Of a DNA stretch of 64,000 nucleotides, positions 1,304-62,274 are shown piece by piece. The notes below the pieces were generated by a model that saw nothing but the letters and a program-made list of their open reading frames with translations, did no database searches and had not been told where the DNA came from. Origin of the DNA: Oerskovia enterophila (GTDB lineage: Bacteria; Actinomycetota; Actinomycetes; Actinomycetales; Cellulomonadaceae). The DNA is taken from the NCBI RefSeq assembly GCF_001692445.1, contig NZ_MAQA01000001.1, positions 124,001 through 188,000 of the forward strand. The letters run 5' to 3'. A program made the position numbers and the translations under genes. Each line of letters opens with the position of its first letter. Positions within the stretch are counted from its first letter, which is position 1.

Positions 1304-2047
1304 TCAGACGATCGGGTTGGTCAGCGTCCCGATGCCCTCGATCGTGATCGCGGAGGTCTGGCCGGGGACCACGTGCGCCGACGTGCCGGGCGACCCCGTG
1401 AGGACCACGTCGCCCGGACCGAGCGTCAGGTGCGAGGTCAGGTAGACGAGCTGCTCGACGACGTCCCACGCGAGACCCGACGTCGACGCCTCGGCCTGCG
1501 TGGCGCCGTCGACCTGGACGTCGATCGCGAGGTCCGCGACGCCCGCCACCGCGAGGTCGGTCTCGATCCAGGGGCCGAGCGGCGTGAAGCCGTCGCCGTT
1601 CTTGGACTGCGTGAACTTGTCGTCGAGCGCGCTCTGCTCGTACGCCGTGACGTCGTTGCCGACGGTCCAGCCGAGGATCACGCCGGGGACCTGCTCGGGT
1701 GTGAGGTGGCGGGCCGTGCGGGCGATGACTATCGCGAGCTCGCCCTCGACCACGACCTTGCCCGCGGCGGGGTCCAGGCGGACGGGCTCACCCGGGCCGA
1801 CCACGGTGCGCGCCGACTTGGTGAACGCCTGCGGCGGGACGAGGCGGTCTGCGGGACCGCTGTTGTGGGCCATGCCGAGCACGACGCGCGGTTCGCACGG
1901 GGCCAGGAGGCGAGCGCCGTCGACGGGGTGGGTCTCGCCCGTGCGCTCGAGCCCGGGGGAGTGGTGGTCGACGACCACGGCCCAGACGTCGCCGTCCTGG
2001 ACGACGGGGCGCGGGCCGGTGGGGGTGGCGATCCGAGCGAGTCTCAC
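1304..2047 (-). CDS. Fumarylacetoacetate hydrolase (FAH) family protein
   Basis: The product is a 247-residue enzyme of the FAH / 2-hydroxyhepta-2,4-diene-1,7-dioate isomerase superfamily. These Mg2+-dependent enzymes cleave or isomerise 3-oxo acids and are often oxaloacetate decarboxylases or acylpyruvases. Family features are VVVEGELAIVIA and GNDVTAYEQ, carrying acidic metal ligands, then the KNGDGFTPLGPW segment and the C-terminal LGPGDVVLTGSPGT motif. I chose GTG at 2047 because GGAGG (2060-2056) sits 8 bases upstream and translation begins with the usual VRLARI strand. The frame stays open far upstream, but that is antisense to kup. The gene is divergent from kup. The substrate cannot be read from the sequence. 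Confidence 0.88.
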   Translation of the reverse strand: MRLARIATPTGPRPVVQDGDVWAVVVDHHSPGLERTGETHPVDGARLLAPCEPRVVLGMAHNSGPADRLVPPQAFTKSARTVVGPGEPVRLDPAAGKVVVEGELAIVIARTARHLTPEQVPGVILGWTVGNDVTAYEQSALDDKFTQSKNGDGFTPLGPWIETDLAVAGVADLAIDVQVDGATQAEASTSGLAWDVVEQLVYLTSHLTLGPGDVVLTGSPGTSAHVVPGQTSAITIEGIGTLTNPIV

Positions 2048-2221
2048 GGTGGTCTCCTCCGTCTGCGGTGTCGGCGCGGTCGTGCCGGCTGAGCGTGAGA
2101 CTACAGGAGGTATGACGTCCGATGTGACCATCGGTGTGGCTCGCCCGACGGCCCGGCGAGACACTGGGAACGGCGGGTTCCGCGGTCTCGCGCGGCCCAC
2201 GGCGCGCGGCGAGGAGGCACC

Positions 2222-4147
2222 ATCCCACGCACGGCAGAGGGCTCGGCAGGGAATGAGCGGTCGGTCGGCGGCCTCGCGCTCGTGGGTGCCCTGGGCGTCG
2301 TCTTCGGGGACATCGGCACGTCGCCCCTGTACACGGCGGCGGCCGTCGTCACCACGGCCCGCGGGGCCGGTGTCGAGGCCGACCGGACCTTCGTCTACGG
2401 GATGACCTCGACGATCCTCTGGTCGTTGACGCTGGTCGTCAGCATCCTCTACGTCCGTCTCCTCCTCCGTGCCGACAACGACGGCGAGGGCGGCCTCCTG
2501 GCGCTGCTCGGCCTGCTCAGACGAACCCTCGGCAGAGCTCGTGACGGGCGGCGGGCAACCGTCGTGCTCACCGTGCTCGGGATGCTCGGGGCCGCGATGT
2601 TCCTCGGGGACAGCGTCATCACGCCGGCCATCTCCGTCCTGTCGGCCGTCGAGGGGCTCGAGGTCGTGGAGCCCTCGCTCGCCCGGTTCGTGGTCCCCGC
2701 AGCCCTCGTGATCCTCCTGGGTCTGTTCCTCGTCGAGCGGTTCGGTACCCGGACGATCGGGCGGTTCTTCGGACCCGTCATGGTGCTGTGGTTCGCCACC
2801 CTCGCCGCGTGCGGCGTCCGAGGGGTGGCGCAGACGCCCGAGGTCCTGGTGTCGGTCTCCCCGCACTGGGTGCTGCTCTTCTTCGTCGACCACCCCGCCG
2901 CGGCCTTCCTGTCGCTCGGTGGTGTGGTCCTGGCGGTCACCGGGGCCGAGGCCCTGTACGCGGACCTCGGGCACTTCGGCCGCCGGCCCATCGTGCGCGC
3001 CTGGGCGTTCGTCGTCTTCCCCGCCCTCGCGCTGAGCTACCTGGGTCAGGGCGGGCACATGATCGCCTCACCCGAGGCGGCGCGGAATCCGTTCTTCTCG
3101 CTGGTCCCCGCCCCGCTCACGATCCCCGTCGTCGTCCTGGCGACCCTCGCGACGATCATCGCCTCGCAGTCCGTCGTCTCGGGAGCCTTCTCGGTCGTCC
3201 ACCAGAGCGGGCGCCTGGGCGTCCTCCCGCCGTTGCGCACCGTCCACACGTCCCCCGCCAACAGCCGCCAGATCTACCTGCCCGCCGTGAACGTCCTCCT
3301 GGCTGCGACGGTCCTGCTCGTCGTCGTCACGTTCCGGTCGTCGGCCGCGCTCGCGTCCGCCTACGGCATCGCCGTGACGCTGACCATCTCGATCACCACG
3401 GTCGTGTACCTCGCCCACGGCTGGACGTCCCGACGGCGGCTCACCGGCAGCACGGTCGTCGCGGCCCCGATCCTGGTCGTCGTCCTCGTCTTCCTCGCGG
3501 CCAACCTGGCGAAGGTCGGCTCGGGAGGGTGGCTGCCCCTGACGATCGGCGCCGTCGTGTTCGTCGTCATGGTGACCTGGTGGACCGGGCAACGGCACGT
3601 CGATCGCGGACGGCTCGCCCTCGAGACGACCGTCCAGCGCGTCGAGGACGTCCTCGAGGCGCACGGGTCCGTGACCAGGACCCGCGGAACCGCGGTGTTC
3701 CTGAGCCGGCACAGCGGGGTGGTGCCCCTGGCGCTGCGATCCATGGTCGAGCAGAACCACGCGCTCCAGCGCCACGTCCTGCTCGTGAGCTGGGCGACGG
3801 CCGACCGGCCGACCGTCCCCACGAGCGAGAGGTTCCAAGTGTCGACCGCGGGCAGCGAAGGCGTGGTCCAGGTGATCGCGACGTACGGGTTCCGGGAGCG
3901 CCCCCGGATCGTCCGGCTGCTCAGCCAGGTGCAACGAGCAGCCCCCGACACCATGCGCGGCGTCGACCTCGGCACCGCGACGTACTTCGTCTCGCTCTCC
4001 GTGCCTCGCTCCAGCTACCGCTCCTCGATGCCCCGATGGTCCCAGCGGCTCTTCCTCGGCCTGTCGCGCCTGGTGCCGGACCCCGTCGAGACCCTCGACC
4101 TTCCTCGCGAACGGACGATCGTGCTCGGCCGCGACGTGCCGCTGTGA
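2222..4147 (+). CDS. kup: Kup-family low-affinity potassium transporter
   Basis: K+/H+ symporter of the KUP/HAK/KT family. The hallmark GVVFGDIGTSPLY lies near the N-terminus. About twelve hydrophobic segments follow, including the conserved TGAEALYADLGHFGRRPI and YLGQGGHMI regions, then a cytoplasmic C-terminal domain of about 150 residues ending at 4147. The start is unusual. The first canonical in-frame start is GTG 2282, but that would remove most of TM1, because NERSVGGLALVGALGVVFGD is clearly coding. No ATG, GTG or TTG occurs in frame between 2111 and 2282. GAGGAGG at 2211-2217 lies four bases before an in-frame ATC at 2222, which would give 641 residues with a family-typical N-terminus. 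I use 2222 as the inferred start; 2282 is the conservative alternative. Confidence 0.9.
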   Translation: MPRTAEGSAGNERSVGGLALVGALGVVFGDIGTSPLYTAAAVVTTARGAGVEADRTFVYGMTSTILWSLTLVVSILYVRLLLRADNDGEGGLLALLGLLRRTLGRARDGRRATVVLTVLGMLGAAMFLGDSVITPAISVLSAVEGLEVVEPSLARFVVPAALVILLGLFLVERFGTRTIGRFFGPVMVLWFATLAACGVRGVAQTPEVLVSVSPHWVLLFFVDHPAAAFLSLGGVVLAVTGAEALYADLGHFGRRPIVRAWAFVVFPALALSYLGQGGHMIASPEAARNPFFSLVPAPLTIPVVVLATLATIIASQSVVSGAFSVVHQSGRLGVLPPLRTVHTSPANSRQIYLPAVNVLLAATVLLVVVTFRSSAALASAYGIAVTLTISITTVVYLAHGWTSRRRLTGSTVVAAPILVVVLVFLAANLAKVGSGGWLPLTIGAVVFVVMVTWWTGQRHVDRGRLALETTVQRVEDVLEAHGSVTRTRGTAVFLSRHSGVVPLALRSMVEQNHALQRHVLLVSWATADRPTVPTSERFQVSTAGSEGVVQVIATYGFRERPRIVRLLSQVQRAAPDTMRGVDLGTATYFVSLSVPRSSYRSSMPRWSQRLFLGLSRLVPDPVETLDLPRERTIVLGRDVPL

Positions 4148-4336: not shown

Positions 4337-4409
4337 GCGCCCGTAGCTCAACGGATAGAGCATCTGACTACGGATCAGAAGGTTGGGGGTTCGAATCCCT
4401 CCGGGCGCA
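4337..4409 (+). tRNA. tRNA-Arg(ACG)
   Basis: A 73-base cloverleaf. The acceptor stem GCGCCCG (4337-4343) pairs with CGGGCGC (4402-4408), followed by discriminator A at 4409. The anticodon stem TCTGA/TCAGA encloses the loop CTACGGA with anticodon ACG at 4370-4372, read ICG after A34 deamination. The T-loop is TTCGAAT. The 3' CCA is not encoded (CAG follows), as is usual in actinobacteria. Confidence 0.97.
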
Positions 4410-4414
4410 CAGAA

Positions 4415-4471: not shown

Positions 4472-7102
4472 TCAGCCGCAGTCCAGCGCCGGGTGGCCGG
4501 CCGTGACCTCGCTCTCGGTGCCCCCCGCCCCGCCCGTCGTGACCGTCACGGTCCCGGCGTCGATCGTCGAGGCACGGGTCGCGAAGGACTGGTGCGCGCT
4601 GGCCCCGGGGGCGACCGCGCTGAACGACTTCTTGCCGGCCGCGGTCACGACCTGGAGGTCGACCGCCACGTCACCGACGTTGACCGCACGGACGCTGATC
4701 ACAACCCTGCCGGCGACGCAGCGCGTGGTCGCGTCGACCTCGACCGTCGCGGGGGCCGGGGAGACCGCGTCCCAGAGCGCACCGACTGCGGCCCGGTCGA
4801 GGGCACCGGTGTAGACCCGCAGGTCGTCGACGTCGACGGCCGCCGCGTCGCTCGCACCCGGCCACCCCGGGGCGTTCAGGAGCCGTCCGAGCTGGGCCAG
4901 CCCGAGCGTCGCGGTACCCGGCACGGTCGAGACCTGCGTACCGTCCGCGTAGACCGTGATGGTCGCGCCGTCCGAGACCAGCGTCAGGTGCACCCACTCG
5001 TCGAGCGGGGTGGCGTACTCGGACCGATGGTCGGCGACGCCGAGCTGCGTGAACCCGACCTTGGCCGTGGCCTTGTACTGCTCGAGCTTGATCGCGGTGC
5101 GCACCCCGGACGAGGTGTCCGAGAGCAAGGCGGAGCTGCTCCTGGCGCCCGTGCGACGGACCCAGGACGCGACCGTCCACGGTCCGCTCACGGGAGCGGC
5201 GCTGAGTGCCACCCCGTCGTCCACGCCGTCGAGGCTGACCGCACCGCCCAGCTGCCCGGGGGTCCAGGTGCCGCCGTCCACCGCGGCCCGCACGCCGGTC
5301 ACGACGTCCAGGGCCGACTGTCCGCTCGTCTCGTCGAAGGTCCAGTGGTGGATCAGCTCGGGCTCCACGGGGACGACGGGCTCCCACTCGACGTCGGGCG
5401 CGCGGAACCACTCGTACCCCAGGGCGTCCCAGCGGTCGTCGTGCTGCGTGAGGCGGGAGAGGAACTCGGTGTAGTCCTTGTCCTGCGCCGGTGACCAGGC
5501 GATCTCGGCGATCGCGGGCATGCGCGGGAAGATCATGTGGTCGGTGTACTGCTCGACCGGGATGAACTGGGAGTGGCTCGTGGGCAGGCTCGTGCTCCCG
5601 CGGTAGGCCCGGTCGGCCCACAGCGAGGCCTCGACCCCCGCGACCTGCTCCTCGGTCACGACCTTGACCGTGCCGTCGGTGCTCGAGAGCTCCGTCACGG
5701 GGTCCCAGTCGTAGGCGCGTCGCAGGTTGACGAGGCCGGCCCACGAGAGGCCGTAGGCCGTCGAGGAGCTGTACTTCATGTCGGTGTAGGACCGGTCGGC
5801 CGGCGACACGACGACACGCGCCCCGGCCGCCAGGGCCGCGCGGACCTCACGGATGTCCGCGCTCTCGGCGCCCACGCCGATCTTGGGACGGTTGACGCGC
5901 CCCTCGGCCCAGTACTGGACCAGGCTGCCTGCGGGCAGGGTCGCCCCCTGTGCCCACTGGTGCCATCCGACGATCGTCTTGCCGTGCTCGGTCGCGATCT
6001 CGTTGGCCATGGCCGTGTACGCCTCGTACCAGCCCGCCGGCGGGTTGGGGACCTCGTCGCCGCCGAGGTGGATGTACTGGCCGGGGTTCTGCGCGGCGAC
6101 CGAGGAGATGACCTTCTCGAGGTAGTCGCGGATGTTCGCCGAGTTGGCCTCGGTCGCGCAGACCATCGGCAGGTTCACGTCGAACCCGTAGTACGGCGCG
6201 GTCGGCACCCCGTCGCACGTGAGGCCCGGGACGGACGCCTGTGCCGCGAGGGTGTGTCCCGGGCCGTCGATCTCGGGGACGATCTCGATGTAGCGCGAGG
6301 CCGCGTACTCGACGATCTCCGCGTAGTCCGCAGGGGTGTAGAACCACGGATCACCCGTGTTGCTGCCCGGGGCCCAGCCGCTCTGCGTCGAGGCGCCGAT
6401 CTCCGTCAGGGCGGGGAGCCCGTCGATCGCGATGCGCCAGCCCTGGTCGTCCGTGAGGTGCAGGTGCAGGGTGTTGAGCTTGTAGAGCGCGATCTGGTCG
6501 ATGTAGCGCTTGACCGCGTCGACGGGGTAGAAGCGGCGGGCGACGTCGAGCATCGCGCTGCGGTACTCGAACCGGGGCTCGTCCTCGATGACGACCGCGG
6601 GGACGACCCAGTCCGCGTCCTGCGCCTGGGTCGCCTCGACCGCTGCGGGGAGGAGCTGACGGAGCGACTGCACACCGTGGAAGAGCCCGGCCGCCGTAGG
6701 CGCGTCGATCGCGACGGCCCCCTCGGAGACGGTGAGGTCGTAGCCCTCGGGGTCCGTCGAGGCGGCGTCGGTCAGGGTGAGCGTGATGGCGCTGGTCGCG
6801 GCCGACGCGTCGGAGACCGGCAACGAGAACCCCGTGGACGGTCGGAGCAGGTCGGCGAGGTACTCGCCGACCGGCGCGGCGTCGTCGGGAGCGACGATCA
6901 CGCTCGTCGGGCCGAGCCGGAACCCGGACCCGGGCCCTCGCTCGAGGCTCACGGGCCTCGGGACGAGCGCGAGGGGTGCCTCGTCCTCGGAGGCGGAGGC
7001 GGGGGCGGCGGACGACCAGGCGGTCGTCGCCACGGCAGGACAGATCAGGGCAAGGGTCACGGCGACGGCTGCGACGCCGCGACCACGGTGCGGGATTCTC
7101 AC
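4472..7102 (-). CDS. Secreted GH20 beta-N-acetylhexosaminidase with LamG and C-terminal CG module
   Basis: Exo-acting hexosaminidase that removes terminal GlcNAc/GalNAc, by family knowledge through substrate-assisted catalysis. Order of parts: Arg-rich signal peptide with a cleavage region near APASAS; GH20 N-domain (about residues 50-175) with GYDLTVSEG; catalytic TIM barrel with YRSAMLDVARRF, HLHLTDDQGWR and the catalytic Asp-Glu in HLGGDEVP (about residue 350); a LamG / concanavalin-like domain (about 575-785) starting LIHHWTFDE; and the shared C-terminal module, with Cys in TTRCVAG and a terminal DCG. I use GTG 7102 because GAGG (7113-7110) is 7 bases from it but only one base from the alternative GTG 7108, so the protein is 876 residues. 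A TetR-type operator lies upstream at 7147-7160. The substrate may be chitin, N-glycan or peptidoglycan. Confidence 0.95.
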   Translation of the reverse strand: MRIPHRGRGVAAVAVTLALICPAVATTAWSSAAPASASEDEAPLALVPRPVSLERGPGSGFRLGPTSVIVAPDDAAPVGEYLADLLRPSTGFSLPVSDASAATSAITLTLTDAASTDPEGYDLTVSEGAVAIDAPTAAGLFHGVQSLRQLLPAAVEATQAQDADWVVPAVVIEDEPRFEYRSAMLDVARRFYPVDAVKRYIDQIALYKLNTLHLHLTDDQGWRIAIDGLPALTEIGASTQSGWAPGSNTGDPWFYTPADYAEIVEYAASRYIEIVPEIDGPGHTLAAQASVPGLTCDGVPTAPYYGFDVNLPMVCATEANSANIRDYLEKVISSVAAQNPGQYIHLGGDEVPNPPAGWYEAYTAMANEIATEHGKTIVGWHQWAQGATLPAGSLVQYWAEGRVNRPKIGVGAESADIREVRAALAAGARVVVSPADRSYTDMKYSSSTAYGLSWAGLVNLRRAYDWDPVTELSSTDGTVKVVTEEQVAGVEASLWADRAYRGSTSLPTSHSQFIPVEQYTDHMIFPRMPAIAEIAWSPAQDKDYTEFLSRLTQHDDRWDALGYEWFRAPDVEWEPVVPVEPELIHHWTFDETSGQSALDVVTGVRAAVDGGTWTPGQLGGAVSLDGVDDGVALSAAPVSGPWTVASWVRRTGARSSSALLSDTSSGVRTAIKLEQYKATAKVGFTQLGVADHRSEYATPLDEWVHLTLVSDGATITVYADGTQVSTVPGTATLGLAQLGRLLNAPGWPGASDAAAVDVDDLRVYTGALDRAAVGALWDAVSPAPATVEVDATTRCVAGRVVISVRAVNVGDVAVDLQVVTAAGKKSFSAVAPGASAHQSFATRASTIDAGTVTVTTGGAGGTESEVTAGHPALDCG

Positions 7103-28340: not shown

Positions 28341-29246
28341 GTGATCCAGTCCGCTCGACGATGGGGCCCGCCACTGCTCCTCGTCGCCCCGTCACTGATC
28401 TTGGTGGGGGTCTTCGTCTACGGCCTCATCGGGATCAACTTCGCCACCTCGACCACTGACATGCACAAGGCTGCGCAGTCCACGGGGCAGGCCCCGGTCA
28501 CGCGGGTCGGCCTCCAGAACTACCTCGACCTGCTCGCGAGCCCGGAGTTCCAGCACTCGCTGATGAACCTCCTGATCTACACCGTGGTCTTCCTGGTCGG
28601 CACCATGGTCGTCGGCTTCGTCTGGGCCTGGCTCCTCGACAAGCCCATCAAGGGCGAGGGCTTCTTCCGCGCCGTCTACCTCTTCCCCATGGCGGTCTCG
28701 TTCGTCGCCTCGGGTGTCGTGTGGCGCTGGCTCCTCAACTCCAACCAGGACGAGAAGGCGAGCGGGCTCAACCGGCTGTTCCAGATGATCGGTCTGGACG
28801 CGCTCCAGAACAACTGGTGGAACAACGTCACGTTCGGCATCGCGGCGATCGCGATCCCCGCGATCTGGCAGCTCTCCGGCTACGTCATGGCGCTCTTCCT
28901 CGCCGGGTTCCGGGGCATCCCCGAGGAGCTGCGCGAGGCGGCCCGCATCGACGGCGCCAACGAGTGGAAGCTCTACCGCTACGTGCTGTTCCCGCAGCTC
29001 ACGCCGATCGCCCTCTCGGCCCTCATCATCGTGGGCCACATGTCCCTCAAGGCGTTCGACCTCATCATGTCGATCTCCAAGCCCTCGAACTACCAGACCA
29101 AGGTTCCGGCCGTCGACATGTACGTCTTCAAGTCCAGCTTCGACTACGCGAACGCCGCGGCCGTCGGTGCGATCCTGCTGGTCATCGTGGCCTTCGTGAT
29201 CGTGCCCTACCTGATCTCCCTGAACCGCAAGGAGAAGATCCGATGA
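28341..29246 (+). CDS. Sugar ABC transporter permease (MalF-like)
   Basis: A 301-residue CUT1 inner-membrane permease. Six hydrophobic segments are visible (for example LLLVAPSLILVGVFVYGLIGI and LIYTVVFLVGTMVVGFVWAWLL). The cytoplasmic ATPase-docking loop is ELREAARIDGANEWKLYRYV, the EAA motif. GTG 28341 is chosen because GGGAGG (28328-28333) is 7 bases upstream; an in-frame TTG at 28326 overlaps that ribosome site. The stop overlaps the next start as ATGA (29243-29246), so the two permeases are translationally coupled and form a heterodimer. Confidence 0.93.
   Translation: MIQSARRWGPPLLLVAPSLILVGVFVYGLIGINFATSTTDMHKAAQSTGQAPVTRVGLQNYLDLLASPEFQHSLMNLLIYTVVFLVGTMVVGFVWAWLLDKPIKGEGFFRAVYLFPMAVSFVASGVVWRWLLNSNQDEKASGLNRLFQMIGLDALQNNWWNNVTFGIAAIAIPAIWQLSGYVMALFLAGFRGIPEELREAARIDGANEWKLYRYVLFPQLTPIALSALIIVGHMSLKAFDLIMSISKPSNYQTKVPAVDMYVFKSSFDYANAAAVGAILLVIVAFVIVPYLISLNRKEKIR

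Positions 29247-60323: not shown

Positions 60324-62274
<1,951 letters not shown>

Follow-up and report, generated by a model that had tools for sequence, protein, structure and literature searches.

ATC is a very rare start codon, and IF3 rejects all start codons except AUG, GUG and UUG. The infC gene of Myxococcus xanthus (dsg) reportedly starts with AUC, and pcnB of E. coli is said to start with AUU. According to Feeney et al. 2017 (PMC5472188), experimental characterisation covers few non-canonical starts in bacteria, and gene finders misplace such starts; infC starts with ATC in Streptomyces, and IF3 autoregulates through the non-canonical start of infC. The paper also proves that sigR of Streptomyces starts with GTC; this start has an extended ribosome-binding site (AGGAGGTG), is kept across the genus and is repressed by IF3 (PMC5472188).

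A comparable arrangement was suspected in the window (the whole stretch of 64,000 nucleotides analysed here, from genome G000, whose assembly amounts to 4.65 Mb in 114 contigs). A first-pass annotation had singled out a potassium transporter gene, kup, in which GAGGAGG at 2211-2217 lies four bases before an in-frame ATC. The features of the locus are the following.

1304-2047, minus strand: hydrolase-family gene, divergent, upstream of kup, resembling fumarylacetoacetate-hydrolase-type families
2096..2098, plus strand: in-frame TGA closing the kup frame upstream
2211..2217, plus strand: GAGGAGG, Shine-Dalgarno sequence; GGAGG kept in 4/4 copies
2222..2224, plus strand: ATC, probable start codon; sole start-like codon among 61, ATC in 4/4 copies
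2282..2284, plus strand: GTG, first in frame, rival start; GTC in G002 and G005
2222..4147, plus strand: kup-family K+ transporter gene, 641 codons plus stop; PF02705 and PF22776; dN/dS 0.16-0.19
4145-4147, plus strand: kup stop codon, in frame with ATC 2222 and GTG 2282
4337-4410: tRNA-Arg downstream of kup

Both the positions and the frame of the Shine-Dalgarno sequence and ATC 2222 were verified: four bases separate GAGGAGG from the ATC, and GTG 2282 follows in the same frame 20 codons later. The absence of any in-frame ATG, GTG or TTG, reported back to 2111, is true even farther, to the TGA at 2096-2098; no usable ATG, GTG or TTG is present in frame in the window between this stop and GTG 2282, and among the 61 codons of 2099-2281 ATC 2222 is the only representative of ATG, GTG, TTG, CTG, ATT, ATA and ATC. 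A start at this ATC would give, as had been proposed, a Kup of normal length, being located 24 codons before GVVFGDIG (28 in G002, which carries a 4-codon insertion); in proteobacterial Kup loci whose ATG is clear, that codon lies 19-24 codons before the motif. The encoded protein matches PF02705 (K_trans, 535.9 bits) and PF22776 (101.3 bits), both above the Pfam cut-off of 24.8 each, and so displays the membrane domain and the C-terminal domain by which Pfam recognises Kup/HAK/KT potassium transporters; its scores fall short of the NCBIfam equivalog cut-offs (NF008015, 562.4 vs 883 bits; TIGR00794, 482.9 vs 539.6 bits). It is a member of the Kup/HAK/KT family, outside the strict NCBIfam equivalog.

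The infC gene, the textbook case of a non-canonical start, was used as a control in the same organisms. It harbors ATC at its start in all seven genomes of the genus, with a stop four codons before, and ATC is found at the same start position in 36 of the 36 family loci read, a set outside which the G229 infC lies. Ten of the 36 have a stop no more than 11 codons ahead of the conserved motif, and a farther canonical start is possible in the rest. The infC ATC (L086, L089 and other family loci) mostly lies behind AGGAG and a six-base spacer, compared with which the four-base spacer of kup is short. The two genes share an ATC behind a Shine-Dalgarno sequence, in the same genus and family; however, infC encodes an initiation factor and controls itself, whereas the product of kup is a membrane transporter, and no tie between this gene and IF3 is known. 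E. coli pcnB, also a non-infC gene said to have a weak AUH start, differs in codon, gene and phylum. The nearest precedent for the kup start is Streptomyces sigR, an actinobacterial non-infC gene with a conserved non-canonical start; it differs by its codon (GTC, not ATC), by encoding a sigma factor and by being both proven at the bench and repressed by IF3, whereas the case for kup is a comparative one (PMC5472188). An ATC start of kup is named in no title or abstract opening among the matches listed.

Matches to kup were found in 3/7 genomes of the genus and 25/221 of the family, and are absent from the other four genus genomes. Besides the window, the close copies (at least 74% identity) are those of G002, G005 and G229, to which the comparison was confined; it leaves aside the more remote Kup loci L006, L007, L033, L037, L038 and L042, whose starts are unclear, and the 45-50% relatives. 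Over a tested stretch of 1000 bases the G229 copy agrees with L011, from Sanguibacter gelidistatuariae, a relative at 82% identity. The G005 copy (L061, about 5585-6609) consists of two pieces: an internal deletion has removed about 290 codons, and the frame is broken; because this copy is broken and four of the seven genus genomes have no match, kup may have been lost repeatedly in the genus.

Comparison of the upstream region in close relatives, a check put forward in the first-pass annotation, revealed the Shine-Dalgarno sequence plus ATC in the three other genomes. GGAGG-N4-ATC is present at the same place in all four close copies (window, G002, the broken G005 and G229/S. gelidistatuariae), a near-cognate codon being therefore conserved at a fixed distance from the Shine-Dalgarno sequence in 4/4 copies. 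From the Shine-Dalgarno sequence to the ATC, 10/14 alignment columns are invariant in the four copies, against 38/111 upstream (Fisher p 0.009, for an interval chosen post hoc), 8/15 just after and 18/54 from there to the GTG. Among the 33 in-frame codons compared at fixed distance (-36 to +60), only the GGA of the Shine-Dalgarno sequence and the ATC are identical in all four, a comparison spoiled beyond about +18 by a 12-base insertion in G002. No canonical start within 60 codons of GVVFGDIG is common to the four copies: the in-frame canonical codons in this range are GTG -4 only in the window, ATG -39 and GTG -21 in G002, ATG -59 and GTG -55 and -45 in G005, and GTG -20, -18, -7 and -4 in G229. 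Counting against the ATC, an ATG 11 codons before it and a GTG 7 codons after it could serve in G002.

The kup region of G002 and G005 is collinear with that of the window, with the tRNA-Arg adjoining, and in G229 the gene lies elsewhere, adjoining a tRNA-Thr. Similarity by blastn between the window and G229 is restricted to 2209-4143, from the Shine-Dalgarno sequence to the end of the gene. Since the unit shared with G229 at another locus begins at the Shine-Dalgarno sequence, this supports the view that Shine-Dalgarno sequence and ATC would belong to kup as one unit, independent of the locus. Whole-gene dN/dS was 0.16 between the window and G002 (dN 0.080, dS 0.51), 0.18 between the window and G229 (dN 0.115, dS 0.65) and 0.19 between G002 and G229 (dN 0.122, dS 0.65); the three intact copies, which are the only intact kup lineages compared, are under purifying selection and, judging from these values, very likely functional.

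As a control, the 231,784 bases of contig C1, a 5% sample of the genome that holds the window, were compared with about 260 kb of G002 for other frames lacking a canonical start. Among 123 non-overlapping conserved frames that passed the filters, 36 had no ATG, GTG or TTG up to 12 codons into their conserved part. Judged by their G + C shape, 26 of these, kup included, are coding and ten are non-coding (position 1 below position 2). Of the coding-shaped frames, 17 have a Shine-Dalgarno-like word ahead of their first canonical codon and nine, among which is kup, lack one. When the leaders of the other eight were read by eye, only the frame at C1 62426 had an in-frame ATC before that codon, with no GGAGG-type word. 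These eight frames are perhaps leaderless, and kup is, by eye, the sole case of a Shine-Dalgarno sequence followed by ATC in this 5% sample of the genome. A frame at 28460, flagged in a noisier version of the scan based on the window only, was an artefact.

It is highly probable that Kup translation starts at AUC 2222 and that kup is a real, conserved AUC-start gene: the four copies preserve the Shine-Dalgarno sequence and ATC together, they have no canonical start in common, the intact ones are under purifying selection, and infC offers a parallel. Translation from GTG 2282, which would make Kup 20 residues shorter and leave the ATC unused, is very unlikely, even if this GTG is the first canonical codon in the kup frame. 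The earlier claim that similarity begins well before 2282 holds for NF008015, whose match begins at residue 12, but not for Pfam K_trans, whose match begins at residue 21, exactly the codon at 2282; a start there would cost little of the Pfam domain, and domain similarity alone is compatible with it. Residues 2-20 are also weakly constrained (pN 0.28-0.36, pS 0.33-0.42), which suits a variable cytoplasmic tail, is weak evidence of coding and counts against the ATC. However, the counterpart of GTG 2282 is GTC in G002 and G005 (GTG in G229), no Shine-Dalgarno-like word precedes it, and the conserved GAGGAGG, 64 bases upstream, would be purposeless.

The chance is slimmer that a longer protein begins upstream at another unusual codon and that the ATC encodes one of its internal Ile residues: in the window the open frame extends over 41 codons ahead of the ATC, but ATG, GTG, TTG, CTG, ATT and ATA are all absent from them, the G002 frame is closed by a stop 18 codons upstream of the ATC, and the upstream DNA is not common to G229. 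Similarly improbable is an upstream ORF starting at ATG 2112 and feeding ribosomes into kup through frameshift or reinitiation. The block around GGAGGTATGACGTCCGATGTGA is indeed kept in the window, G002 and G005, but the motif is missing from G229, the ATG comes a mere one base after GGAGG, the peptides diverge after MTSDV, and the phase to the ATC is 2 in the window and G002 and 0 in G005; a frameshift from the upstream ORF into kup was rejected on the basis of this phase. There is hardly any probability left that the window was missequenced or misassembled, or that its kup has decayed, despite the deletion and frame break in G005 and the four genus genomes with no kup match. The first-pass annotation regarded a sequencing correction as the result that would overturn its reading, but the identical ATC occurs in three other genomes, two of them in single-contig assemblies, so that the window is very unlikely to be in error here; moreover, the 641 codons are uninterrupted and dN/dS is low.

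With Kup translation starting at AUC 2222, the strong GAGGAGG Shine-Dalgarno sequence would position this codon on the ribosome, where it would probably be decoded by initiator fMet-tRNA. Because IF3 rejects starts other than AUG, GUG and UUG, its discrimination against AUC would result in low Kup synthesis, rising when IF3 activity falls, and the AUC start would throttle synthesis of this K+ transporter. This suggests that Kup output is held low by start-codon proofreading. The predicted folds show a largely base-paired ATC in three leaders out of four (unpaired probability 0.13 in the window, 0.29 in G002, 0.54 in G005 and 0.04 in G229), and such pairing may further reduce output, or merely reflect GC-rich RNA. 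A more speculative and rather doubtful idea is that the AUC start couples K+ uptake to translation, Kup synthesis, like that of infC, tracking the free balance between IF3 and 30S subunits; the start-codon check that governs IF3 levels would then also govern the import of an ion needed by ribosomes. If a transporter gene has a conserved AUC start, control sensitive to IF3 would reach further than infC and sigR, and kup represents a clean test case for which the genus's own infC serves as an internal control.

Some other features are present in the leader DNA between the hydrolase gene and kup. A block at 2097-2127, around GACTACAGGAGGTATGACGTCCGATGTGA, is near-identical in the window, G002 and G005 and absent in G229; it contains an ATG one base after GGAGG, plus ATG-TGA, and is perhaps a promoter or operator. 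A promoter and terminator scan of 1990-2300 recognised nothing. A riboswitch ahead of kup was considered and dropped, the two Rfam matches obtained for 1900-2500 being far below their cut-offs; at gathering level, the Rfam matches in the whole window were limited to two tRNAs and one TPP riboswitch. The TPP riboswitch lies at 60371-60480 on the plus strand (64 bits vs a cut-off of 54.3). Finally, the kup genes of other family members (L035, L037, L040, L041, L043 and L044) have a GTG or ATG soon after a CACGAT motif, with no evident Shine-Dalgarno sequence, and their transcripts are perhaps leaderless.
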